From: a virus
Strand: one strand, 5' to 3'
IMG/VR virus record: IMGVR_UViG_3300031251_000054
Location: 1-40,539 of that record
DNA: 40,539 nucleotides
This document shows, one piece after another, positions 6,375 to 18,901 of this stretch. The notes under the pieces were generated by a model. That model was not told the DNA's origin, made no database searches, and was given only the letters and a program-made list of their open reading frames with translations. The stretch's first letter is position 1, and every line of letters begins with the position of its first letter. A program made the translations under genes and the position numbers.

Positions 6375-6631
6375 GCGCGCCGTCACGGCCGCGCTTCCTG
6401 CACGAGTGCGGGCCGCACGAGGAGCTGTTCGAGACGTCGTTGACCGTGCTCGTGGGCATCTCGCCGGCGCCGCGCCCGCTGTACGGGATGCTGTTCTGCA
6501 AGCATCACGACGTCGGGCACTTCACGTGGCGCAGCGAGCGCGATCGCCCGCTCGACGAGGAGACGTGGGCCTTCACCGGCGAGTTCTGCCGCGCGTGCTT
6601 TCGGGTGCTTACCTGGCGGAGGATTTACTGA
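6371..6631 (+). CDS. Small Cys/His protein upstream of polymerase (86 aa)
   Basis: I start at the GTG at 6371, which forms a GTGA overlap with the previous stop and follows GGGAGGTGGAGG; the frame is open further left, but that is shadow. Possible metal ligands are HECGPH (about 11-16), CKHH (about 43-46) and CRAC (about 75-78). The stop shares bases with the polymerase start (TGATG), so translation is probably coupled. Function unknown. Confidence 0.5.
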   Translation: MSAPSRPRFLHECGPHEELFETSLTVLVGISPAPRPLYGMLFCKHHDVGHFTWRSERDRPLDEETWAFTGEFCRACFRVLTWRRIY

Positions 6632-8538
6632 TGCCAGCTCCGAAGGTTACCATCGTGGATTTTGAGACCGAGGCGATCCGGTCGCGGCCGCGTTACCCGC
6701 CGAAGCCGGTGGGCTGCGCGCTGCGCTACCCCGGGCGGCGGTCGAAGTACCTCGCCTGGGGCCACCCTACGCGGAACAACTGTACCCTAGAGCAGGCGAC
6801 GCGGGAGCTGCGCGACGTGTGGCGCGGCGGCGACCTCTGCTTCCAGGCCGCGAAGTTCGACGTCGACGTCGGCGAGGTGCACCTCGGCCTCAAGCCGCCG
6901 TCGTGGGATCGCATCCACGATACCAAGTACCTGATCTTCTTCAAGGACCCGTACGCGCCGTCGCTCGGCTTGAAAGAGAGCGCGGAGCGGCTCCTCGGCC
7001 AGAAGCCCACGGAGCGCGATCGCCTTAGGGAGTGGGTCCTCGCCCACGTGCCGGAGGCGCGGAAGAAGCCAACGGAGTGGGGCGCGTACATTTGCCGCGC
7101 GCCGGGCGACCTCGCCGGCGAGTACGCGTGCGGCGACGTCGACCGTACCGGCGACCTGCTCACGTACCTTTGGAACGAGGTCGTCGTTGGCTGGGACATG
7201 CGCGAGGCGTACGACCGCGAGCGCCGGCTGATGCCGATCCTCCTCGAGAACGAGCGCGAGGGGGTGCGCGTCGACCTGCCGCGCATGAAAAAAGACCTCG
7301 TCGTCTTTCAAGCGGCGATGGAAAAGGCGGACGCGTGGCTGCGCCGGCGCCTTGGTCTTTCCAAGGATGCGAACATCGACAGCGACCAGCTGATGGCCCG
7401 GGCGTTCGTCGACGCGCGCGTCGTCACCGGTTTGAAGTATACCGCGCCGTCGAAGAAGTTTCCGCACGGCCAACCCAGCGTCAGCGGCAAGAACCTGACG
7501 CCCGATATGTTCCTTGACCCCCAGGTATGCTCGGCGTACGCGTACCGCAACAAGCTGAGCACCTGCCTTGGGACCTTCCTCGAGCCGTGGATCGCGCTCG
7601 CCGAGGAGAACGACTCGCGCATCCACACCAGCTGGAACCAGGTGCGCGCGTCGGAGGGAGGCGGCACGGCGGCGGAGGGCGCGCGCAGCGGGCGCATGTC
7701 GAACCAGCCTAGCCTCTCCAACGTGCCGGTGGACTGGTCCAAGGCGAAGGGCGAAGGCTACGTTCACCCCGCGTTTCTGCGCGTGCCCGAGCTACCGCTC
7801 ATGCGTATCTACTTCCTTCCCGACCCCGGGCAGGCGTGGGGCAAGCGCGACTACAACGGGCAGGAGCTGCGCATCCTCGCCCACTACGAGGACGGCCCGC
7901 TGCTCGCGCGCTACCTCGAGGACCCGCACGTCGACATCCACCAGGAGGTTCGCGAGGGTTTCATCCAATACGCGAACGTCGACCGCCCGCGCAAGTCGGT
8001 GAAGAACGCTAACTTCGCCGACATCTACGGCCAGGGCATCGGGCTCCAGGCGGCGACGCTCGGCATCAGCGTGGCGCAGATGCACCTGCTGCGAAAGATC
8101 AAGGACACGCACCTCATGCCCGGCGTGGCGTCGCTGCGCAAGGAGCTGATGCGCCTCTGGCGGACGGGCTGCGCCATTAGAACCTTAGGCGGAAGGGAGT
8201 ACTACTGCGAGCCGGCGAAGTTCATTAAGAAGAAAAATCGCGTGGTAAGCTTTGAGTACAAGGCGCTGAATTACCTGATCCAGCCGTCGGGCGCCGACAT
8301 GATCAAGCAGTCGATCATCAACTACCACGAGCACCCGAAAAGGGAGGCGCGGTGGCTGCTATCGGTGCACGACGAGAACGACGCCTCGATGCCAAAATCA
8401 AAGACGGGCCAGCGCGAGCAGATGGTGGTGCTGGCCGACGCGATGGAGAACGCCTTCCACCTCGACCTCGAGGTGCTAAGCGACGGAGAGCTTGGGCCGA
8501 ACTGGGCCGAGCTGAAAGAGTTCAACGATGAAGCATAA
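6631..8538 (+). CDS. Family A DNA polymerase with 3'-5' exonuclease domain (635 aa)
   Basis: The replicative polymerase. The exonuclease domain shows ExoI VDFETE (Asp10, Glu12), ExoII AKFDVDV and ExoIII YACGDVDRTGD. The polymerase domain shows motif A DYNGQELRILAHYEDG (from Asp407), motif B RKSVKNANFADIYGQG (about 453-468) and motif C VHDEND (about 579-584). There is no 5'-3' exonuclease domain, and the length is typical of phage enzymes related to T7 and other PolA types. The ATG at 6631 is chosen because the upstream open frame is shadow of the preceding gene. It heads a run of overlapping recombination genes. Confidence 0.95.
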   Translation: MPAPKVTIVDFETEAIRSRPRYPPKPVGCALRYPGRRSKYLAWGHPTRNNCTLEQATRELRDVWRGGDLCFQAAKFDVDVGEVHLGLKPPSWDRIHDTKYLIFFKDPYAPSLGLKESAERLLGQKPTERDRLREWVLAHVPEARKKPTEWGAYICRAPGDLAGEYACGDVDRTGDLLTYLWNEVVVGWDMREAYDRERRLMPILLENEREGVRVDLPRMKKDLVVFQAAMEKADAWLRRRLGLSKDANIDSDQLMARAFVDARVVTGLKYTAPSKKFPHGQPSVSGKNLTPDMFLDPQVCSAYAYRNKLSTCLGTFLEPWIALAEENDSRIHTSWNQVRASEGGGTAAEGARSGRMSNQPSLSNVPVDWSKAKGEGYVHPAFLRVPELPLMRIYFLPDPGQAWGKRDYNGQELRILAHYEDGPLLARYLEDPHVDIHQEVREGFIQYANVDRPRKSVKNANFADIYGQGIGLQAATLGISVAQMHLLRKIKDTHLMPGVASLRKELMRLWRTGCAIRTLGGREYYCEPAKFIKKKNRVVSFEYKALNYLIQPSGADMIKQSIINYHEHPKREARWLLSVHDENDASMPKSKTGQREQMVVLADAMENAFHLDLEVLSDGELGPNWAELKEFNDEA

Positions 8539-10169: not shown

Positions 10170-11640
10170 CGAAGCAACGCCGCGCCCGTGGGACCCGGAG
10201 CCTTATCAAATCCACGGCGTGGAGTTCCTGGTGGGGCGGGGCGCCGCGGGCCTATTCTGGCCTCCCGGCTTACGCAAGACATCGTCCACGCTGAAGGCGA
10301 TCAAGACGCTGCGTGATACTGGTCAGATCAGGTTAACACTAGTCGTTGCCCCGCTGCGCCCGTGCTACCTGGTGTGGCCGAAGGAAATCCAGAAGTGGCG
10401 GGAGTTCAACGACCTTAGCTACGTGGTGCTGCACGGCGACCTTCGCAAGCGCGAGAGGCTGCTCGAGGAGAAGAAGGACATCTATATCATTAACCCCGGC
10501 GGGCTTCCGTGGTTGCTTGCCGATAAGCTGCGGCTGCGCCGCATGGGAATCGACGCGCTTGTCATCGACGAGTCGAGCTCGTTCAAGCACGCTAATACCC
10601 AGCGGTTTAAGCTGCTGAAGCCGTTCTTGCCGCAGTTCAAGCGGCGCTACATCCTGACCGGCACGCCGAATCCTAACGGTTACCTCGATATTTTTGGCCA
10701 GATCTACATTTTGGACCTGGGCGGCGCGCTGAGCCCGTATTACTCGCACTACCGCAATAACTACTTCTACGCTGTCGACAAGTTTGGGTGGAAGTGGAAT
10801 CTGATGCCGGGCGCCGACCAACTGATCCAGAGGCAGATCAAGCCGCTGATCCTCTGCCTCGACGATAAGGACTACATCAAGCTGCCGGCGTTCGTCGGCG
10901 TCGCCGGCGACCCCACCGAGCACCAGATCAAGGTGGAGCTGCCGCCGGCCGCGCGCAAGACCTACGACCAGCTCGAAGAAGATATGATCGCCCGCGTGGG
11001 CGACCGCACGGTGCTCGCGGTCAACGCCGGCGTGGTCACCCAGAAGTGCGCGCAGGTGGCGAACGGCGGCCTGTACTGCGACGAGCCGCCGGGCGCCGAG
11101 CTTACGGCCCGCGCGCCGCGCGCGACGCTCCAGCTGCACGACGCGAAGACCGAGGCGCTGCAGGAGCTGATCGACGAGCTGAACGGCGCGCCGCTGTTGG
11201 TGCTGTACGAGTACCACCACGATCTGGAGCGCTTGCACCGCGCGCTGTTTCCCAAGCTGGCGCTGCGTGACGTACCCTACCTTGGGGGAGGGGTTACGCC
11301 GAAGCGGACGGATGAGCTTGTCAGGCGGTGGAACCAAAGCGAGCTGCCGCTGCTGCTTGGCCACCCCGCGGCGATGGGCCACGGGCTTAACCTGCAGGAG
11401 GGCGGCAACCAAATCTGCTGGTACTCGATCCCCTGGGACCTAGAAATGTACTACCAGACGAACCGCCGCATCCGGCGCAGCGGGTCGCCGCACGCCAAGG
11501 TGTTCGTGCACCATCTCGTCGCCGAGGCGACGGTCGACGTCGCGAAGATGGCGGCGTTAAGAAGAAAAGATAAGACGCAGCGCGGGCTGCTCGACGCGCT
11601 TAAAGAGTACGTAGGTACAAGAAAGAAGAAAGGAAAGTAA
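10156..11640 (+). CDS. SNF2-like superfamily 2 helicase/ATPase, altered Walker A (494 aa)
   Basis: Both RecA-like lobes are present: motif I WPPGLRKTS (35-43), motif II VIDESSSF (136-143), motif III ILTGTPNP (166-173), then motif V (MGHGLNLQEGG) and motif VI (QTNRRIRRSGS). Similar proteins remodel DNA or drive branch migration in phages. Motif I has Arg40 where GxGKT has Gly, which a single base change could cause, so ATPase activity is uncertain. The ATG at 10156 is chosen because the frame further upstream is shadow of the VRR-NUC gene. The start lacks a strong ribosome site and is probably coupled. Confidence 0.85.
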   Translation: MENNNEATPRPWDPEPYQIHGVEFLVGRGAAGLFWPPGLRKTSSTLKAIKTLRDTGQIRLTLVVAPLRPCYLVWPKEIQKWREFNDLSYVVLHGDLRKRERLLEEKKDIYIINPGGLPWLLADKLRLRRMGIDALVIDESSSFKHANTQRFKLLKPFLPQFKRRYILTGTPNPNGYLDIFGQIYILDLGGALSPYYSHYRNNYFYAVDKFGWKWNLMPGADQLIQRQIKPLILCLDDKDYIKLPAFVGVAGDPTEHQIKVELPPAARKTYDQLEEDMIARVGDRTVLAVNAGVVTQKCAQVANGGLYCDEPPGAELTARAPRATLQLHDAKTEALQELIDELNGAPLLVLYEYHHDLERLHRALFPKLALRDVPYLGGGVTPKRTDELVRRWNQSELPLLLGHPAAMGHGLNLQEGGNQICWYSIPWDLEMYYQTNRRIRRSGSPHAKVFVHHLVAEATVDVAKMAALRRKDKTQRGLLDALKEYVGTRKKKGK

Positions 11641-11993
11641 TGGCAGGCTTTATCGAAATTAAACTGCGGTGGCCTAAATCGGTGCCCGTCGACCAGATCA
11701 GCGTTGAGTTCATCCAGGGGATGCTCGACCGCATGGCCATGGGCTTCTATAGCTACGGCCACGTGATGCGGCAGGCGTGCCCGCCCGACGCGATCGCGTG
11801 CGACAGGCTTCGGCTGAAGGCCTACCGCAAAACCCACAACACGGAGTCCCTGATCGATCGCGCGAACTTCAACATGATGGAGTTCATGCGGCCAAAGGAC
11901 CCCAAGGCGTTCTTCGCGTCGACGTCGCGCAAGGAAACCCCGGGCGCGATCCTCATGGACAAGCGCCGGGTGAAGGGCAAGGAGGAGTTTTGA
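11640..11993 (+). CDS. Conserved phage protein of unknown function (117 aa)
   Basis: The middle has the pattern RLRLKAYRKTHNTESLIDRANFNMMEF (about residues 58-84), which I recall from many phage genomes as part of a small helical domain, followed by PGAILM near residue 103. No enzyme motif is visible. TAATG overlap with the helicase and TGATG overlap with the next gene place it firmly in the operon. Possibly a modulator of a neighbouring enzyme. Confidence 0.6.
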   Translation: MAGFIEIKLRWPKSVPVDQISVEFIQGMLDRMAMGFYSYGHVMRQACPPDAIACDRLRLKAYRKTHNTESLIDRANFNMMEFMRPKDPKAFFASTSRKETPGAILMDKRRVKGKEEF

Positions 11994-12523
11994 TGGAACG
12001 GCCAAAGATAGTCTGCCTCTGCGGCTCGACCCGTTTTAAGGACAAGTTCGCGGAAATGAACTTCCAAGAAACGCTTGCCGGCCGCATCGTACTAAGCATT
12101 GGCTGCGACGCCAAAAGCGACGCGTATCTCGGAATTACCCCTGAGCAGAAGGTCCGGCTCGACGAGCTGCACAAGCGCAAGATCGACCTGTGCGACGAGG
12201 TGCTCGTGCTGAACGTCGATGCCTACGTGGGCGAGAGCACGCGCTCGGAGATAGCGTACGCCGTCGCGCACGGCAAGCGGGTGCGTTACCTTGAGCCGTA
12301 CCACTCGCGGGCGTTTCTGAACGTCCCGCTCGTCGATGATGAGCTAAGACGGTTGCTCGAGGAAGCGAGAGCTTTGCCTTTGCCGCCGATGACCGCGGCC
12401 GAACGGCGCGAGCAGCGCATCAGCTTCGCGTATGGCAACGGCGCGATGCACAACCCGTCGATCACGCGCGAGGACGTCGAACGCGCGCACGACGAAATAT
12501 ACGGAAAGCCGGAGGAAAAATGA
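11993..12523 (+). CDS. Nucleoside 2-deoxyribosyltransferase-like protein (176 aa)
   Basis: The first 105 residues follow the deoxyribosyltransferase fold: CLCGSTRF at the start, then DEVLVLN and YVGESTRSEIAYA, where the Glu of GES is the expected nucleophile. The C-terminal 65 residues are unrelated, charged and helical. The family exchanges bases on deoxynucleosides or hydrolyses deoxynucleotides, so a role in salvage or modified-nucleotide supply fits the next cluster. The ATG at 11993 overlaps the previous stop; the longer frame from 11777 is shadow. Confidence 0.75.
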   Translation: MERPKIVCLCGSTRFKDKFAEMNFQETLAGRIVLSIGCDAKSDAYLGITPEQKVRLDELHKRKIDLCDEVLVLNVDAYVGESTRSEIAYAVAHGKRVRYLEPYHSRAFLNVPLVDDELRRLLEEARALPLPPMTAAERREQRISFAYGNGAMHNPSITREDVERAHDEIYGKPEEK

Positions 12524-13281
12524 AGATCGTAAGACCGTACATGCGGATGCTGACGACCGGGCACGTAATGCCAACAATTCCGACGCATACTCCTAACGAA
12601 ATAGGCGCGCTTGAGTTCGTAAACTGGTGCGGGCGCATCTCGCATCGCTCGGAGGACGCCGAGAAGCAGGACGTTGAGCGCTTCCTGCGCGCCGTCATCC
12701 TTGGCCACGGCGACTGGTCGATCGCCGAGCACGTTTCGGTCTCGGTCGACGCGCTGGTTGACCGCGGCATCACCCATGAGATCGTGCGCCACCGTATCGC
12801 GGCGTACACCCAGGAGTCGACGCGCTTCGTGAACTACGCCAAGAAGATGCCGCCGGCGTTCATCTATCCCATCGTGGGGGTAGAATGTAAGCGCTGCCTA
12901 GAGGGAGAGGAGGTGTGGCACGACGGCGAGTGGTATCATGGAGATCCTGAAGGTAAAGGTATCTTCGAGTGTACGTACGACCCAGCGTGGTTATTAAGCA
13001 TTGCGCAGGCTGAAGCTTCTTACCGCGAGCTGCTAAGCAAATGGAGACCGCAGGAGGCGCGGTCGGTGTTTCCCAACGCGCTGGCGTCGCGCATCGTCAT
13101 CACCATGAACCTGCGCACCTGGCGGCACTTCTTCCTGATGCGCACGTCGGCCGAGGCGCACCCGCAGATGCGCCAGGTTACCATCCCGCTGCTAGCGGAG
13201 TTCCAGGCCGCGATCCCCGTGCTGTACGAGGACATCGTCCCCAACGCGCGACAGATCGACAACATGAGCAAGGCCCGTTAA
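12520..13281 (+). CDS. thyX: Flavin-dependent thymidylate synthase ThyX (253 aa)
   Basis: ThyX makes dTMP from dUMP with FAD and methylene-tetrahydrofolate. The diagnostic RHRx7S motif is present (Arg90-His91-Arg92 to Ser100), followed by TRFVNY, and the C-terminal NLRTWRHFFLMRTSAEAHPQMR region is intact. An unusual insertion at about 121-153 carries Cys123, Cys126 and Cys151 with His134 and His140 nearby, a possible metal site. The gene overlaps the previous one (ATGA). A ThyA-family gene sits 3 kb downstream, so the two enzymes probably have different substrates. Confidence 0.93.
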   Translation: MKIVRPYMRMLTTGHVMPTIPTHTPNEIGALEFVNWCGRISHRSEDAEKQDVERFLRAVILGHGDWSIAEHVSVSVDALVDRGITHEIVRHRIAAYTQESTRFVNYAKKMPPAFIYPIVGVECKRCLEGEEVWHDGEWYHGDPEGKGIFECTYDPAWLLSIAQAEASYRELLSKWRPQEARSVFPNALASRIVITMNLRTWRHFFLMRTSAEAHPQMRQVTIPLLAEFQAAIPVLYEDIVPNARQIDNMSKAR

Positions 13282-13306
13282 TCGAAAGAGAAAAGGAGAA
13301 TTACCA

Positions 13307-14044
13307 ATGCCGCTTAACCCCGACTACCGCGGAGGAGAAAAACCCTTCGACCAGACCAGCTGCCGCGAGACCACCTACGGCTTTTGGGGCCACCGCGACT
13401 ACGCGGCCCACTTCTTCCGCTGGGCGTTCATGAAGAACCGGTTCAAGCAGACGGACGTGGTGCTCGACGTCGGCTGCGGGCCTGACCGGTCGCTGATGCG
13501 CCTGCTGATCCCCAACCCGGGGCTGCACCCCAAGCTGTACGTCGGCGTCGACATGAACGCGCTGAAGCCGACGGTGATGAAGTGGGCACGCCTCCACGAT
13601 CGCTTCAACTTCGTAAAGGACGGGCTGACGCTGCAGAAGAAATACGGCCTGTTCGACAAGGCCGTATGCTTCGAGGTCCTCGAGCACATGAAGCCGCCCG
13701 ACGGGCTGAAGCTGCTGAAGAACGTCCACGCGCTGCTGAAGCCCAACGGCGAGTTCTACATGTCGACGCCGGTGTTCATTAAGAAGCAGGCGCTCAACCA
13801 CATCCACGAGTATACCCTCCCCGAGCTCCAGGCCGCTATTAAAAAGGCTGGCTTCGTCGTGAAGAAGCGCTACGGCACGTTCGGCCGCCTCAACTACCTC
13901 GAGAAGGCCCTGACGCCGGGAGAGCAAGAAACGTGGAACAAGCTGCGGCCGTACTACGGCAACGACGCCATGAGCGTTATCTTCGCGCCGCTGCACCCCG
14001 ACCAGGCCTCCAACAACCTCTGGATTTTAGGGAAGGAGAAGTAA
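13307..14044 (+). CDS. Class I SAM-dependent methyltransferase, paralog 1 (245 aa)
   Basis: Motif I VVLDVGCGPD (51-60), an acidic loop GVDMN, the CFEVLEHM motif and a following STPVF strand mark a class I methyltransferase of the Methyltransf_11/23 type. The N-terminal GHRDYAAHFFRW and C-terminal RYGTFGRL and ASNNLWI are shared with the gene at 17427-18164, which has the same length, so the two are paralogs. The substrate is unknown; small molecules, nucleotides or modified bases are possible. AAAGGAGAATTACC precedes the ATG. The stop overlaps the cytosine methyltransferase start. Confidence 0.8.
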   Translation: MPLNPDYRGGEKPFDQTSCRETTYGFWGHRDYAAHFFRWAFMKNRFKQTDVVLDVGCGPDRSLMRLLIPNPGLHPKLYVGVDMNALKPTVMKWARLHDRFNFVKDGLTLQKKYGLFDKAVCFEVLEHMKPPDGLKLLKNVHALLKPNGEFYMSTPVFIKKQALNHIHEYTLPELQAAIKKAGFVVKKRYGTFGRLNYLEKALTPGEQETWNKLRPYYGNDAMSVIFAPLHPDQASNNLWILGKEK

Positions 14045-15144
14045 TGAAGCCAACGCTCGTCATCAATAGCTACGCGGGGTCGTTGTCGATCGCCGCGCAA
14101 AGCCTCGGGTCCAAGGTCGTGGGGTCCTATGAAGATTGCGGCTACGGCGTCGCGGCCCAGAAGCTGAACTACCCGAAGATAGACTATCGCGATACGCGCG
14201 AGGACTGGCCGAAGAAGCCGGACCTCGACGGCGTCCTCGTCATCGCGCACCCGCCGTGCGCGGCGTTCTCGCAGCAGAACATCGCAAACAACAACCCGGC
14301 CCTGATGGGCGTCGAGGCGAACAGTTTCGGGCCGCACAAGCTGGTGCTCGACTACGCGCTGCGCGGCGGCTGCTCGGGCCTCGCCATCGAGTCGGTCCAG
14401 GGCGCGATCAAGGCGCTTCCCGTTTATCAAAAATATGCTAAGAAATTTGGCTATAACGTTTTCACCGTCAAGCTGAACGCCATCACCTTCGGCCTTCCCC
14501 AGTGGCGGCCGCGGGTATGGTTTCTGTTCAGCAAGAAGAAGGACCTCGCGACGCGCTACGCGCCGGAGTGCCGGCCGATCGCGGACATCGTCATGAAGAA
14601 GGGCACCATCGACCAGTACGTGCCGTTCTACGAGCGCACGATCGCGAACCTCGTCAAGAGCGGCATCTCGCGGAAGAGGATCATGAGCGAGGTCTTCGAC
14701 GGCGAGCCGGGCACGATGTTCGCGCGCGTCAAGAAGCTGTACGGCGACGAGGTCTATGACCGGTGGATGGCCAGCGATCGTGTCGTCTTCAAAAACTATT
14801 ACCCGCGCATGCTCAGCATGGAGGAGTGGGCGCCGTGCGTGCTGCACGACTGCGTGTGGATGGTGCCCGGGCGGCTCCTGTACGTCGAGGAGTACGAGCG
14901 CATCATGGGTTTCCCCGAGGGCTGGCAATGGCCGGCGAACATGTATCGTCAGTTCAAGATCTACCTCAGCAAGGGAGTCTGCCCGCCCATCGCCGCGTGG
15001 GTGCTGAAAACTTTGAACCAGCAGGAGAAGAACTGCAACCTCGAGTTGCGCAGCGACGTGATCAATGACCTTCAAATTAACAAGGCACGCGTTCGCGAGC
15101 TGATCAAAAACCGGAACAAGAAGGGGGCGTATGCCTTTGAATAA
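14044..15144 (+). CDS. C5-cytosine DNA methyltransferase (366 aa)
   Basis: The enzyme transfers a methyl group from SAM to carbon 5 of cytosine in DNA. Visible motifs are I (NSYAGSLSIAAQ, 8-19), IV with nucleophile Cys72 (HPPCAAFSQQ), VI (IESV, about 114-117, in place of the usual ENV), VIII (PQWRPRVWFL, with Gln153, Arg155 and Arg157) and X near the end (GVCPPIAAW). The target-recognition region between VIII and X is about 160 residues. It could protect phage DNA from restriction, or belong to the modification pathway around it. The ATG at 14044 overlaps the previous stop. Confidence 0.9.
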   Translation: MKPTLVINSYAGSLSIAAQSLGSKVVGSYEDCGYGVAAQKLNYPKIDYRDTREDWPKKPDLDGVLVIAHPPCAAFSQQNIANNNPALMGVEANSFGPHKLVLDYALRGGCSGLAIESVQGAIKALPVYQKYAKKFGYNVFTVKLNAITFGLPQWRPRVWFLFSKKKDLATRYAPECRPIADIVMKKGTIDQYVPFYERTIANLVKSGISRKRIMSEVFDGEPGTMFARVKKLYGDEVYDRWMASDRVVFKNYYPRMLSMEEWAPCVLHDCVWMVPGRLLYVEEYERIMGFPEGWQWPANMYRQFKIYLSKGVCPPIAAWVLKTLNQQEKNCNLELRSDVINDLQINKARVRELIKNRNKKGAYAFE

Positions 15145-16060
15145 GGTCGTCATCGTTGAGGGCCCCGACGGCGCGGGGAAGACGATGCTGTGCGCCGAGC
15201 TGACGAGCATGTCGTACTCGTGGCATGGCGGGGTGAAGCCGATCGTGGAGCACGAGGGCCCTCCCGCGAAGGGCGTCGATCCCTTTACTTACTACACCAG
15301 CCGGCTGCTGCGCTACCTGCACGCCCGCGTGCCGCGCGTGCTCGACCGCTTCCACCTCGGCGAGACCGTCTACGGGCCGATCTGCCGCGGCGAATCGAAG
15401 ATGGGCGCGCTCGGCGTCCGGCTCATCGATCGCCTCTGCTCGGCGTACGGCGTGCCCATCGTCGTCGCGCTGCCGTTAAAAGAAACGTGCTACACCAACT
15501 GGCAGGCGAAGGCGGTAGACTACGTTAAAAAAGAAGAGCAGTTTGATCGAATCTACGAGGCCTACGCTCGCCTTAAAAACCAGTACGTGGGCTATGACTA
15601 CGAGGTGACGGCCGACCTCGTGGACCTCGCAACTATTCTTGCGGAAAAGAGACGCGTGCTGCCGATGGGCGTCACCGGTTCGCCCAGCGCGTCGGTGCTG
15701 CTCATCGGCGAGCGGCCCAACGGCGTCTTCGACCTTCCCTTCCACGCGCTCGACAATAGCTCCCGGTACCTTAACGACGCGCTCGAGCGCGCGGGGCTCG
15801 GGGAGAACCATATCGCCCTGGTCAACGCGTACCATGACGACGGCCGCGCGTTCGACCTCGTCGAGGTGGCGAGCGCGTTGCCTGGCCTTTCGCTGGTCGT
15901 CCCGCTGGGAAACGCCGCGGCGCGCGCCGCGCGGCGCCTGACGCTTAAGGGGCTCGACGTTCACCCGTTGCCGCACCCGCAGTATTGGAAGCGGTTCCAC
16001 GCGCGAGAGGAAGACGCCTACATCGAGATGCTCCGGGAGGTGAAACGTGTCGCATTTTAA
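15131..16060 (+). CDS. Fusion of thymidylate-kinase-like domain and uracil-DNA-glycosylase-like domain (309 aa)
   Basis: Residues 1-175 form a dNMP/dN kinase: Walker A EGPDGAGKT (10-18), DRFHLGETVYGP (72-83) and a lid region near 120-145. Residues 186-305 match the UDG superfamily layout: LLIGERPNGVF (190-200) like the GEAPG motif I, ALVNAYHDDG, VPLGNAAA (257-264), and LPHPQYWKRFH (280-290) like the HPS motif. I infer a kinase that phosphorylates a (modified) deoxynucleotide joined to a base-binding or glycosylase module. The fusion is unusual. The gene overlaps its neighbours on both sides and sits between a cytosine methyltransferase and a ThyA-family gene. Confidence 0.7.
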   Translation: MPLNKVVIVEGPDGAGKTMLCAELTSMSYSWHGGVKPIVEHEGPPAKGVDPFTYYTSRLLRYLHARVPRVLDRFHLGETVYGPICRGESKMGALGVRLIDRLCSAYGVPIVVALPLKETCYTNWQAKAVDYVKKEEQFDRIYEAYARLKNQYVGYDYEVTADLVDLATILAEKRRVLPMGVTGSPSASVLLIGERPNGVFDLPFHALDNSSRYLNDALERAGLGENHIALVNAYHDDGRAFDLVEVASALPGLSLVVPLGNAAARAARRLTLKGLDVHPLPHPQYWKRFHAREEDAYIEMLREVKRVAF

Positions 16061-16895
16061 CGAGGCCAAGGGATCGTTCGGCCACGCGTGGTATAACCTG
16101 CTCGACCACCTGTACCATGAGGGAAAGACCACGACGCCGCGCGGGATCGAAACCCGCGAGACCTGCGCGGTATCGCTGACCGTGGCCAACGCGCTCGCCA
16201 GCGTGCTCGTCGACCCCGCCCGCAACCTCAACTACCGGTTCATGGTAGCGGAGTGGTTGTGGATCACGGCCGGCCGGCGAGACGTCGCCTCGCTCGCGCG
16301 CTTCAACGGCAAGATGGCTAACTTCAGCGACGACGGCGTGACCCTGGCCGGCGCGTACGGGCCGCGGCTGCTTCCGCAATGGCCGTGGCTGCTCGACGCG
16401 CTGCGCCGCGACCACGACACGCGCCAGGCGGTGGCGACGGTCTTCACCCCGATGCCCGCCCCGTCGAAGGACGTGCCATGCACGTTGTCGTTCCAGCTGC
16501 TGCGGCGCGACCACCGGCTGCACGGCATCGTTACCATGCGGTCGTCGGACGTGTGGCTAGGGCTGCCGTATGACTTCTTCACCTTCAGCCAGCTGCTCAA
16601 CTCGTGCGCCGCCGCGCTCGAGGTCCGGGTCGGCTCGCTTACCTTCAACCTGGGGTCGTCGCACCTCTACGCGACGGACTTCGAGGCCGCGCGCGAGGCG
16701 CTACGCCGGCAGGAAACGTCGACGCTCGCGATGGCGCCGCTGCAGCGCTACTTGTCGCCGGGCGATGCCGAGCGAGTCCTGCTTGGCTACGATGGCGAGG
16801 GTTTTCCAACGTTCCCCTACTACGACGTGCTCCACGTCGCGAAGACGCGCCTCGAGGCGCTGGAGGTGCTGCGTGCCGCGTCAAAACGTGCATGA
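16047..16895 (+). CDS. ThyA-family enzyme, predicted dCMP hydroxymethylase or methylase (282 aa)
   Basis: The ThyA fold is evident: Glu69 in VAEWLW, catalytic Cys145 in DVPCTLSF, the phosphate-binding RSSDVWLGLPYD (165-176), and His206/Tyr208 in SSHLYAT. At the position of the dUMP-reading Asn (GLPFN in thymidylate synthase) it has Asp176. In T4 dCMP hydroxymethylase an Asp occupies this place, and an Asn-to-Asp change in thymidylate synthase favours dCMP. I therefore predict a dCMP substrate. Start is a GTG at 16047 after GGGAGGTGAAAC. A separate ThyX covers dTMP synthesis. Confidence 0.75.
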   Translation: MSHFNEAKGSFGHAWYNLLDHLYHEGKTTTPRGIETRETCAVSLTVANALASVLVDPARNLNYRFMVAEWLWITAGRRDVASLARFNGKMANFSDDGVTLAGAYGPRLLPQWPWLLDALRRDHDTRQAVATVFTPMPAPSKDVPCTLSFQLLRRDHRLHGIVTMRSSDVWLGLPYDFFTFSQLLNSCAAALEVRVGSLTFNLGSSHLYATDFEAAREALRRQETSTLAMAPLQRYLSPGDAERVLLGYDGEGFPTFPYYDVLHVAKTRLEALEVLRAASKRA

Positions 16896-17346
16896 GTACT
16901 ACTGCGACATGCTGAAGCTGGTGGCCACGCGCGGGACCTGCCCGCGGCGCCAGGTAGCGGCGATCCTGACCGACGCCCAGGGCCGCGTGCTCGCGACGGG
17001 CTACAACGGCGTACCGTCAGGGTATCCGCACTGCGTCGACGAACGCACGCGGTGCCCCGGCGCCGCGGACGCGGCCGGCGACACGTCGCGCTGCGTGGCG
17101 ATCCACGCCGAGCAGAATGTGATCGTGCAGGCAGGGCTGAGCGGCAGCCTCGCCCGAGCCCATGACCTCTACGTGTCGACGTCGCCGTGCTTTACCTGCT
17201 GCAAGCTGCTGTGCTCGCTGCCCGAGCTGCAAAACATCTTCTGCCTGGAGCGGTACGCCGACGCCTCCGGGCTCGACCTGCTGAACCGAAGAAAGATCCT
17301 GCTGTTCATCAAGCACGATTTTGGATTTTTGAAGGTGGTCGCATGA
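16873..17346 (+). CDS. dCMP deaminase (157 aa)
   Basis: Zinc-dependent deamination of dCMP to dUMP, feeding ThyX. The zinc site is His78-Ala-Glu80 (AIHAEQN) with Cys106 and Cys109 (SPCFTCCK). The substrate loop GYNGVPSGYPHC (43-54) is typical. I use the GTG at 16873 because it follows GGAGGTGCTGC; GTG at 16888 is an alternative. The gene overlaps the end of the ThyA-family gene by 23 bases, so both are probably made together and would compete for dCMP. Confidence 0.9.
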   Translation: MPRQNVHEYYCDMLKLVATRGTCPRRQVAAILTDAQGRVLATGYNGVPSGYPHCVDERTRCPGAADAAGDTSRCVAIHAEQNVIVQAGLSGSLARAHDLYVSTSPCFTCCKLLCSLPELQNIFCLERYADASGLDLLNRRKILLFIKHDFGFLKVVA

Positions 17347-17426
17347 CGAAGCGAAAAGTGCTTGTGGCGAAGTTCCACGCACAACGTTCATTAGACGTAA
17401 TTTCGACGAATTTGAAAGGAAAAAAG

Positions 17427-18164
17427 ATGGAACAACGCACCTACCACACCTCGCGCAAACCGCGGGAGGAAAGGCGGTTCGACAAAACGCAGCTCGTGGA
17501 CACCGAGCTGGTACACCGTGACTACGCGGCCCACTTCTTTCGTTGGTCGTGGGTGCAGCACGAGGTTCGCTTCGGCGCGAAGCTCCTCGACGTCGGCTGC
17601 GGCGCGCACGCCCCGCTATTAGGTGTCGTGGCGACGAACCGTGGTCGTGTTCGGCCTAATAACTACACCGGAGTCGATCTTAATAAGATCAACCGTAAGA
17701 GCGTGCCGGCGTGGGCCGACGTACGAGGAGAGTTTGACTTTACCGCACGCTACAAGGAACTTTCTAAGGCGACGTTTGACCGCGTGGTGTGCTTCGAGGT
17801 AATAGAGCACATGGGCGTGCGAGATGGAGACAAACTGCTTGAGGGCGTCGCTTATTGTTTGAAACCAAATGGCCGGTTGTACCTGTCGACGCCGGTATTC
17901 AGCGGTGCGGCCGCGGCGAACCACATCCACGAGTATGAGGCCGAGGAGCTGGCGAAGAAGATCAAGACGCGCGGGTTCAACGTCCTGAAACGTTACGGGA
18001 CCTTTGCCCGCCTGCCGGCTATCGAAAAGGTCCTAACCAAGGAGGAGCGCGTCGTCTTCAAGCGGATGTCGGAGTTTTACTCGCACGAGGCGATGTCGGT
18101 GTTCTTCGCCGTGCACCACCCGAACGAAGCGTCTAATAACATGTGGGTGTGCGAAAAGAAATGA
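17427..18164 (+). CDS. Class I SAM-dependent methyltransferase, paralog 2 (245 aa)
   Basis: Paralog of the protein at 13307-14044, sharing HRDYAAHFFRW (30-40), motif I LLDVGCG (53-59), CFEVIEHMG, LSTPVF, HIHEYEAEEL and ASNNMWV. I start at the ATG at 17427, after GAAAGGAAAAAAG, because it gives exactly the paralog's length. An in-frame ATG at 17343 overlaps the deaminase stop (ATGA) and would add 28 basic residues. Substrate unknown; location inside the nucleotide cluster suggests a nucleotide or base derivative. Confidence 0.8.
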   Translation: MEQRTYHTSRKPREERRFDKTQLVDTELVHRDYAAHFFRWSWVQHEVRFGAKLLDVGCGAHAPLLGVVATNRGRVRPNNYTGVDLNKINRKSVPAWADVRGEFDFTARYKELSKATFDRVVCFEVIEHMGVRDGDKLLEGVAYCLKPNGRLYLSTPVFSGAAAANHIHEYEAEELAKKIKTRGFNVLKRYGTFARLPAIEKVLTKEERVVFKRMSEFYSHEAMSVFFAVHHPNEASNNMWVCEKK

Positions 18165-18901
18165 CGCGCTACGAACGGATCGCCCAGTGCAACGAGCTGA
18201 TGTACTGGGCGATCGAGGTGCAGAACGAGCGTCGAGAGCTGATCGCGGTGGTCGGCGAGCTCGACCAGCTGAACGAGCTGCACCGCTTGCTTTACGAAGA
18301 AAAGGAGAACGAAATGAACCACGAAGCGTGGGAGATGGTAAGAGAGTTTCACGCGCGCCAGGGCTTCCCGGCGCCAGACGAACCAACCAAGCTGGAGCCG
18401 CACATTGCGCTACTGCGCCAGCGCCTCATCCTCGAGGAGCTCGGCGAGCTGGCGATCGCGGTCCACACCAGCAACCTCGTCGAGGTCGCCGACGCCGGCG
18501 CCGACCTCGCGTACGTGCTCCACGGCACCGCGGTAAGCGCTGGGTTGAAATCAGAGTCGGCGTTCGACGCTAAAAACACGGAGGCCATCGACGCGCCGAA
18601 GATGCTTGGGTACGTCACCGAGGCCGTCAACGTTTTGATCTATGAGCTCGGCTGGTACGCCGATAAGCCATCGCGAATCGTGCGCGCGGTCGACCTGGCC
18701 GTCCTCGCGACCGCGAGGCTTCTTGCCACGTACGACGTTCCATTTGAGGAGTGCTTCCGCGAGGTGCAGCGGTCGAACATGACGAAGCAGGCGCTGACCA
18801 AGGAGGAGGTCGCGCGCGGCGCGAAGGGCGGAGTGAAGGGAGATAAGTTTGAGTTGCCGAACCTGCGCGCGATCCTCCTCGAGGCTGGGCTAGTAGTTTA
18901 A
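18161..18901 (+). CDS. MazG-like nucleotide pyrophosphohydrolase (246 aa; possible internal start at 18314)
   Basis: All-alpha NTP pyrophosphatase pattern: REFHARQGFP, then LILEELGELAIA and EVADAGADLAYVL, giving the metal-binding ExxE and ExxD pairs; a late FEECFREVQRSNMTK completes the site. Relatives hydrolyse (d)NTPs to NMPs, including the dCTPase/dUTPase class used by T4. The first 51 residues are an extra helical segment. An in-frame ATG at 18314 has the better ribosome site (AAAAGGAGAACGAA) and begins exactly where the family usually begins, so two products may be made. A terminator follows. Confidence 0.8.
   Translation: MTRYERIAQCNELMYWAIEVQNERRELIAVVGELDQLNELHRLLYEEKENEMNHEAWEMVREFHARQGFPAPDEPTKLEPHIALLRQRLILEELGELAIAVHTSNLVEVADAGADLAYVLHGTAVSAGLKSESAFDAKNTEAIDAPKMLGYVTEAVNVLIYELGWYADKPSRIVRAVDLAVLATARLLATYDVPFEECFREVQRSNMTKQALTKEEVARGAKGGVKGDKFELPNLRAILLEAGLVV

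Follow-up and report, generated by a model that had tools for sequence, protein, structure and literature searches.

A conserved phage gene cassette predicted to replace cytosine with 5-hydroxymethylcytosine, and a methyltransferase family associated with it

The operon and its relatives

The window analyzed here (all 40,539 nucleotides of the IMG/VR viral record IMGVR_UViG_3300031251_000054) carries a single operon, at 11640-18901, encoding ThyX, a methyltransferase (MT1), a C5-cytosine methyltransferase, a dNMP kinase with a UDG-like domain, a ThyA-family enzyme, a dCMP deaminase, a second methyltransferase (MT2) and a MazG-like hydrolase, all on one strand and either overlapping or at most 25 bp apart (Table 1). 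This gene set, proposed in an initial annotation, is confirmed by Pfam (scores above gathering thresholds) and by PHROGs, which agree with Pfam (thymidylate synthase 2e-44, dCMP deaminase 3e-32, others in Table 1). Two of its entries need amending: the dNMP-kinase-like protein is a kinase, but one fused to a UDG-like domain (Pfam, structure matches) rather than a single-domain enzyme, and the two extra methyltransferases are present but are paralogues, 44% identical in alignment.

Table 1. Coordinates of the operon genes and the DNA polymerase gene in the window
Feature	Position	Strand	Evidence
Family A DNA polymerase, true start probably internal	6406..8538	+	PF00476 6e-36
ThyX, flavin-dependent thymidylate synthase	12520..13281	+	Thy1 9e-37; TIGR02170 above cut-off; RHRx7S motif
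MT1, class-I SAM methyltransferase, proposed 5hmC tailoring enzyme	13307..14044	+	Methyltransf_23 4e-13
C5-cytosine DNA methyltransferase, accessory	14044..15144	+	PF00145 (C-5 cytosine methylase) 6e-13; PPC, ESV, QxRxR motifs
P-loop dNMP kinase (TMK-like) fused to UDG-superfamily domain	15131..16060	+	PHROG thymidylate kinase 6e-11; Pfam UDG superfamily 6e-6 (C-terminal half)
ThyA-family dCMP 5-hydroxymethylase (predicted)	16047..16895	+	PF00303 (Thymidylat_synt) 6e-20; active-site residues
dCMP deaminase	16873..17346	+	PF00383 (dCMP_cyt_deam_1) 3e-17; HAE and PCxxC zinc motifs
MT2, MT1 paralogue	17343..18164	+	Methyltransf_23 1e-12; same invariant residues as MT1
MazG-like NTP pyrophosphohydrolase, proposed dCTPase	18143..18901	+	PRA-PH 5e-14; PHROG nucleotide pyrophosphohydrolase 7e-23

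The C5-methyltransferase starts at ATG 14044 and MT2 at either ATG 17343 or ATG 17427; a longer GTG start for MT2 was rejected. The MazG-like protein weakly matches DR2231 MazG-like structures, and the protein encoded at 11993-12523 has no significant match among solved structures. The gene order kinase-ThyA-dCMP deaminase is common to nearly all of 18 IMG/VR loci (L001-L018), so the grouping is not due to chance, and a Family A DNA polymerase gene lies beside the cassette in most relatives. Numerous uncultivated phages share the cassette, as does Stenotrophomonas phage AXL3; no near-identical phage record was found, and a prophage scan of genome contigs found no host.

The fused kinase, whose gene adjoins that of the hydroxymethylase in nearly all relatives, is proposed to be a hydroxymethyl-dCMP kinase. 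Its AlphaFold model (pLDDT 91) has structural matches to both UDG and TMK, those to the UDG fold falling in the C-terminal domain. In the window this domain contains GERPN and HPQYWKRF, fitting the GExPx and HPxYxxR motifs of UDG family 4/UdgX; motif 1 is variable among relatives, and the four Fe-S cysteines of that family are absent, since residues 178-309, which make up the translated domain, include no Cys.

Predicted substrate and product of the ThyA-family enzyme

The Asp expected of a dCMP-acting ThyA-family enzyme, to which the initial annotation had drawn attention, is borne out by alignment as D177, in company with C146, T147, E58, S167, R126, H207 and Y209 (E. coli numbering); in T4 numbering, the enzyme matches the nucleophile Cys148 with its adjacent Thr, Asp179, Glu60, Ser169 and His216/Tyr218. 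At positions 147/177 the window enzyme has T/D, a pair that it shares with T4 gp42, phage G gp319 and every IMG/VR relative aligned; the dUMP hydroxymethylases of SPO1 and M6 have N/N, E. coli ThyA has H/N, and gp63 of AXL1, a phage of the Xp12 genus that serves here as a stand-in for Xp12, has P/D. These active-site residues strongly support the prediction of a dCMP hydroxymethylase; residues 147/177 were also the main ground for rejecting three other functions, namely dCMP methylation, action on dUMP and ordinary dTMP synthesis. The best PDB match is the CMP hydroxymethylase MilA (3e-23), but in place of Ala176 and Lys133, the residues of ribose preference in MilA/BcmA, the window enzyme has Ser167 and Arg126, so that a deoxy substrate is predicted, unlike that of MilA.

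As to descent, identity is 23% to T4 gp42 (core), 29% to the AXL1 enzyme, 37% to SPO1 gp29 (the nearest biochemically characterized relative by identity among the enzymes aligned) and 39% to phage G gp319. The T4-like pathway first suggested for this locus thus appears to hold as chemistry (residues, conserved cassette, and the MetaGPA contigs and AXL3 pattern described below) but not as lineage: the enzyme is not close kin to gp42, the SPO1 and phage G enzymes being nearer, and the length of the gp42 branch prevents its firm placement in a tree. The enzymatic roles of the T4 pathway (gp56, gp42, gp1, cd, glucosyltransferases) are the same, and gp42 shares the Cys, Thr147 and Asp177; in the window, however, a MazG-like protein stands for gp56, a TMK-like kinase with a UDG-like domain for gp1, ThyX for td, and methyltransferases for the glucosyltransferases. 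Gp313-gp319 of Bacillus phage G include, like the window, a kinase-UDG protein (gp315), a dCMP deaminase and a T/D hydroxymethylase; unlike the window, phage G has its kinase and hydroxymethylase near an alpha-glucosyltransferase. Thymidylate synthases with Asp177, PRA-PH proteins and dCMP deaminases also occur together on phage contigs with experimentally modified cytosine in the MetaGPA study, where tailoring is by a 5hmC carbamoyltransferase (PMC8670742); the words kinase and methyltransferase are absent from its main text.

AXL3 and the Pseudoxanthomonas phage PW916 have MT, MazG, kinase-UDG, hydroxymethylase and dCMP deaminase genes as in the window, but with a single MT copy, gp31 in AXL3, in the regions examined, and no C5-methyltransferase was found beside the cassette in either. 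Of 37 restriction enzymes tried on AXL3 DNA, only TasI and Tru1I cut: the AATT and TTAA cutters work, and the 35 with G or C in their sites fail (PMC7504290). This restriction-digestion pattern fits T4-like dCMP hydroxymethylation plus tailoring. The AXL3 authors themselves read the genes as thymidylate synthesis, with deaminase, thymidylate synthase and kinase leading to dTDP (PMC7504290). The enzyme names agree with this published proposal, but dTMP is already made by ThyX, the catalytic residues are those of a dCMP enzyme, and both restriction resistance and the linkage to tailoring enzymes are left unexplained; we regard it as very improbable. Much the same can be said of a dUMP hydroxymethylase feeding thymine hypermodification of the SPO1/M6 type, in which the kinase would act on 5-hydroxymethyluracil in DNA: a kinase is present, SPO1 gp29 is the nearest characterized relative, and the PW916 protein is annotated as deoxyuridylate hydroxymethyltransferase, but the SPO1 and M6 enzymes have Asn at both positions where the window has Thr147 and Asp177, and cutting of AXL3 DNA at AATT/TTAA and not at G/C sites is the opposite of what thymine modification would give. 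This reading too has very little to recommend it.

A slightly better but still quite improbable alternative is that the enzyme is a dCMP methylase, as in Xp12, filling the genome with 5-methylcytosine that carries no hydroxyl. The published product in Xp12 is 5-methylcytosine. AXL1 is restriction-resistant and has, like the window, a ThyA-family enzyme with Asp177, MazG and dCMP deaminase, though no kinase is annotated in its cluster. The presence of a C5-methyltransferase would be less paradoxical in such a genome; moreover, Asp177 by itself can also lead to methylation of dCMP, as PMC8670742 cites for E. coli N177D. Against this, the window has Thr147, as in T4 gp42, rather than the Pro of AXL1; its enzyme is closer to those of SPO1 and phage G than to that of AXL1; AXL1 has a DHFR near ThyA, whereas no DHFR was found in the window; KpnI and Eam1105I partly cut AXL1 DNA but not AXL3 DNA; and in relatives the enzyme is accompanied by glycosyltransferases, whose reaction requires a hydroxyl. 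Replacement of cytosine by 5-hydroxymethylcytosine in this phage's DNA is very probably the correct reading of the sequence.

Methyltransferases linked to the cassette

A hydroxymethylase gene lies near 70 of 80 MT loci but only 6 of 25 ThyX control loci (Fisher p 5e-9, contig kinship ignored); in the 70, the two genes are always on the same strand, at a median 2.1 kb, and 68 of the enzymes read as T/D. Among 50,697 phage records MT was found in only four phages, all with the cassette. Other cassette phages carry instead a GT-B glycosyltransferase, here called X: the cassette is present at 14 of 14 X loci and MT at none, and X is at none of the 80 MT loci (contig kinship again ignored). The case for exclusivity rests on these MT-centered and X-centered scans, since in the hydroxymethylase-ascertained set alone (2 MT and 8 X among 18) it is not significant (chance 0.29). 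At L001, X sits between a ThyX remnant and the C5-methyltransferase, the place of MT1 in the window; DSL-LC01 has a cassette in which X lies beside a UDP-galactopyranose mutase. The association of the MT1/MT2 family with the hydroxymethylase cassette is new here.

What the MT proteins methylate is less readily read from their sequences. E123, E126, H127 and H165 (E-x-x-E-H...H) are invariant in 88 of 88 MT sequences, a set resembling the HEN1 Mg site (residues from PMC10781085): E-x-x-E-H aligns with human HENMT1, and His165 would be the fourth HEN1 ligand judging from order alone. A UbiG profile matches 8 of 8 members and Hen1 5 of 8, all far below curated cut-offs (UbiG 26-36 bits vs 103, Hen1 15 vs 340), so the acceptor is inferred, and N4 or another acceptor is possible. 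One serious contender, if somewhat short of an even chance, is that 5hmC does replace cytosine but MT1/MT2 methylate N4 of hmC, or RNA, protein or a small molecule, leaving virion DNA with 5hmC that is either plain or tailored in some other way. The closest profiles do include methyltransferases of lysine, RNA and small molecules, and the fold does not reveal the acceptor; but MT occurs almost exclusively in hydroxymethylase cassettes and is never found with X, which at L001 occupies the position of MT1. That MT1/MT2 act on the hydroxymethylated base is somewhat more likely than not; that the product is specifically an O-methyl one, 5-methoxymethyl-dC, is a tentative suggestion with less than an even chance.

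The C5-methyltransferase has PPC, ESV in place of ENV, and QWRPR, placing it in the class marked by a PC nucleophile, ENV and QxRxR, and its motifs are kept across cassette loci. No significantly related solved structure was found, and a pattern scan of viral contigs confirmed no relatives, so its linkage is judged from cassette loci only. There it is a minority accessory, and tailoring is more likely the work of MT1/MT2. The conflict recognized at the outset is real: complete replacement of cytosine would leave this enzyme without a free C5.

A possible route to modified cytosine

The pathway we envisage would begin with removal of unmodified dCTP by the MazG-like enzyme. The ThyA-family enzyme would then convert dCMP and methylene-THF to 5-hydroxymethyl-dCMP, a step with strong residue support. 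From gene adjacency, the fused kinase would produce the diphosphate, host NDP kinase would finish, and phage Pol A would incorporate the modified dCTP. Homology suggests that dTMP would be supplied independently by dCMP deaminase (giving dUMP) and ThyX, freeing the ThyA-family enzyme from dTMP synthesis. Taken jointly, hydroxymethylation, phosphorylation with incorporation, and separate dTMP supply seem to us highly likely. Finally, MT1/MT2 would tailor the hydroxymethyl group, taking the place that a GT-B glycosyltransferase has in other cassette phages; the likeliest reaction would be a metal-assisted O-methylation with SAM, giving 5-methoxymethyl-dC. The original proposal of replacement followed by further alteration is thus supported by the gene content, with MT1/MT2 rather than the C5-methyltransferase as the likely tailoring enzymes; the best reading is conversion of C to 5hmC and then tailoring, perhaps to 5-methoxymethyl-C. 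A fuller and more doubtful version has MT1/MT2 as phage 5hmC O-methyltransferases, counterparts of the GT-B enzyme, and the UDG-like domain removing 5-hydroxymethyluracil arising from deaminated hydroxymethyl-dCMP.

On this pathway, the published thymidylate cluster of AXL3 and PW916 would be reinterpreted as one for cytosine replacement, explaining the AXL3 restriction pattern, and a testable methyltransferase family is linked to hydroxymethylcytosine phages. The MT pair may yield a DNA base of which no description was found in the literature searched. If it does so by methylation of the hydroxyl, the resulting methyl ether on 5hmC would be a small cap that blocks, at little cost, both restriction enzymes and enzymes whose target is the free hydroxyl; 5hmC chemistry would also gain a new tool. 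The mutual exclusion of methyltransferase and glycosyltransferase suggests that phage DNA modification has modular last steps.

The gene run and its ThyA-family enzyme

The record is linear, viral and 40.5 kb long, and its tail sheath and baseplate genes indicate a contractile-tailed phage. A compact single-strand run of mostly overlapping genes (table) lies downstream of a family A DNA polymerase gene. Pfam and PHROGs upheld the enzymes listed in the initial annotation, with small corrections to starts and the addition of a UDG-like fusion to the kinase. A conserved protein of 176 aa (CLCGSTRF...GESTRSEIAYA), encoded upstream of ThyX and also present in two cassette loci (L007 and L014), has no match in Pfam, PHROG, NCBIfam or PDB; by eye it resembles nucleoside deoxyribosyltransferase-like folds and may be a nucleotide N-hydrolase.

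Features of the window and of related loci
Feature	Coordinates	Strand	Assigned by
Gene run	11640-18901	one strand	
Conserved 176-aa protein	11993-12523		
ThyX	within 11640-18901	one strand	Pfam, PHROGs
MT1	13307-14044	one strand	Pfam, PHROGs
C5-cytosine methyltransferase	14044-15144	one strand	Pfam, PHROGs
P-loop kinase with UDG-superfamily C-terminus	within 11640-18901	one strand	Pfam, PHROGs
ThyA-family enzyme	within 11640-18901	one strand	Pfam, PHROGs
dCMP deaminase	within 11640-18901	one strand	Pfam, PHROGs
MT2	17343-18164	one strand	Pfam, PHROGs
MazG-like hydrolase	within 11640-18901	one strand	Pfam, PHROGs
ThyX remnant, nearest relative	L001:5925-6206		
Phage G gp315-gp319	L031:5928-9495		
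Family X example	L010:13711-14709		

The best solved relatives of the ThyA-family enzyme are CMP hydroxymethylases (MilA), and it retains C146, E58, Y94, R126, S167, H207 and Y209 (E. coli numbering throughout). MilA has Ala and Lys in place of its Ser167 and Arg126 (PMC5175136), two residues that point to a deoxyribose substrate. In the alignment, positions 147/177 split the reference enzymes cleanly: H/N in E. coli ThyA, N/N in the SPO1 and M6 dUMP hydroxymethylases, T/D in T4 gp42, and P/D in AXL1 gp63 (Xp12 genus, product presumed 5mC). The window enzyme has Thr147 and Asp177, as do phage G gp319 and all aligned IMG/VR relatives. Independently of this analysis, MetaGPA found these to be the best positions for separating ThyA domains of cytosine-modified and unmodified phage contigs, with PRA-PH and dCMP deaminase domains co-occurring with those of the modified contigs (PMC8670742). 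The window, from a possibly incomplete record, contains no DHFR gene, which fits a non-folate-oxidising hydroxymethylase together with ThyX.

Residues 147/177 and the recurrence of the cassette support the cytosine-modification pathway first proposed, as T4-like cytosine replacement; on sequence grounds, we have high confidence that 5hmC replaces cytosine in this phage. The window enzyme resembles T4 gp42 in predicted function, but is not its close kin within the ThyA superfamily: T4-like descent was rejected, core identity being only 23% to gp42 (37% to SPO1 gp29, 39% to phage G gp319).

The T4 gp1 kinase role yields the diphosphate of hydroxymethyl-dCMP, a conversion the window kinase very likely performs. 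Its AlphaFold model (pLDDT 91) pairs a thymidylate-kinase-like domain with one like UDG family 4/UdgX, and conservation is strong at the P-loop, DR and HPxYxKRF motifs. The UDG-like half has none of the Fe-S cysteines of family 4 and is missing from some relatives; speculatively, it may clear hydroxymethyluracil or uracil made by the deaminase. The C5-methyltransferase keeps the PC and QxRxR motifs, with ESV replacing ENV, as in all 19 aligned cassette-associated homologues; such genes, of two distinct types, occur in a minority of cassette loci. Complete replacement of cytosine would deprive it of a normal substrate; it could work while unreplaced cytosine persists, methylate host DNA, or catalyse an atypical reaction on 5hmC.

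The cassette in other phages

Among 18 IMG/VR loci retrieved by the ThyA-family protein alone, nearly all have the kinase directly upstream of that gene, and most have dCMP deaminase directly downstream, with Pol A and MazG nearby. ThyX in the nearest relative is a short remnant, its ends recognisable and its middle gone; the remaining cassette genes are intact despite this. Two cultured phages, Stenotrophomonas phage AXL3 and Pseudoxanthomonas phage PW916, carry the same set. Bacillus phage G has a looser version with an alpha-glucosyltransferase (gp313), and gp315-gp319 together with gp313 predict glucosylated 5hmC in its DNA.

Only 2 of 37 restriction enzymes cut AXL3 DNA, both with A/T-only sites; its authors ascribed the cluster to thymidylate synthesis, leaving the modification without explanation (PMC7504290). 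Residues 147/177 would supply one. KpnI and Eam1105I partially cut DNA of AXL1 (PMC9206674) but not of AXL3 (PMC7504290), so the two modifications probably differ.

Candidate last steps

The paralogous class-I SAM methyltransferases MT1 and MT2 (family MT) are 44% identical. In a tblastn search of 50,697 phage records, hits to the family were confined to four phages, two of them environmental genomes and the others AXL3 and PW916, and each has the cassette. When 80 IMG/VR loci were retrieved by MT alignment, the ThyA enzyme not being a criterion, 70 held a homologue of the hydroxymethylase, in every case encoded on the same strand as MT (median distance 2.1 kb); 68 of these are T/D and the other two incomplete at those columns. 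ThyX-retrieved control loci held one in 6 of 25 cases (Fisher p ~5e-9, ignoring contig kinship). Each of the 80 fetched stretches has one MT, versus two paralogues in the window.

UbiG matches all eight aligned MT members and Hen1 five of the eight, all far under family cut-offs. E123, E126, H127 and H165 do not vary across 88 MT sequences; HEN1 binds Mg through E796, E799, H800 and H860 for ribose hydroxyl methylation (PMC10781085). By this analogy, from which we infer the acceptor, MT would carry out metal-assisted methylation of the hydroxymethyl oxygen, on DNA or nucleotides, giving 5-methoxymethyl-dC. The open-licence literature searched reports no methyltransferase that modifies phage 5hmC at its hydroxymethyl group. 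Our confidence that MT1 and MT2 tailor 5hmC is moderate.

Other cassette phages carry family X (phrog_14998, without a Pfam name), whose AlphaFold model (pLDDT 85) matches GT-B glycosyltransferases, including phage glycosyltransferase 9iqz, with modest TM-scores. Homologues occur in T4-like phages of Providencia and Morganella, and the Morganella one overlaps a gene annotated as a putative arabinose 5-phosphate isomerase; in phage DSL-LC01, X lies inside the cassette, adjoining UDP-galactopyranose mutase. X is a good candidate for a 5hmC sugar transferase. In the IMG/VR scan it was found only with the cassette (14 of 14 loci), MT being present at none of these and X at none of the 80 MT loci. 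The nearest relative has X between the ThyX remnant and the C5-methyltransferase, the slot of MT1 in the window. The simplest reading is that MT and X are alternative last steps on one base.
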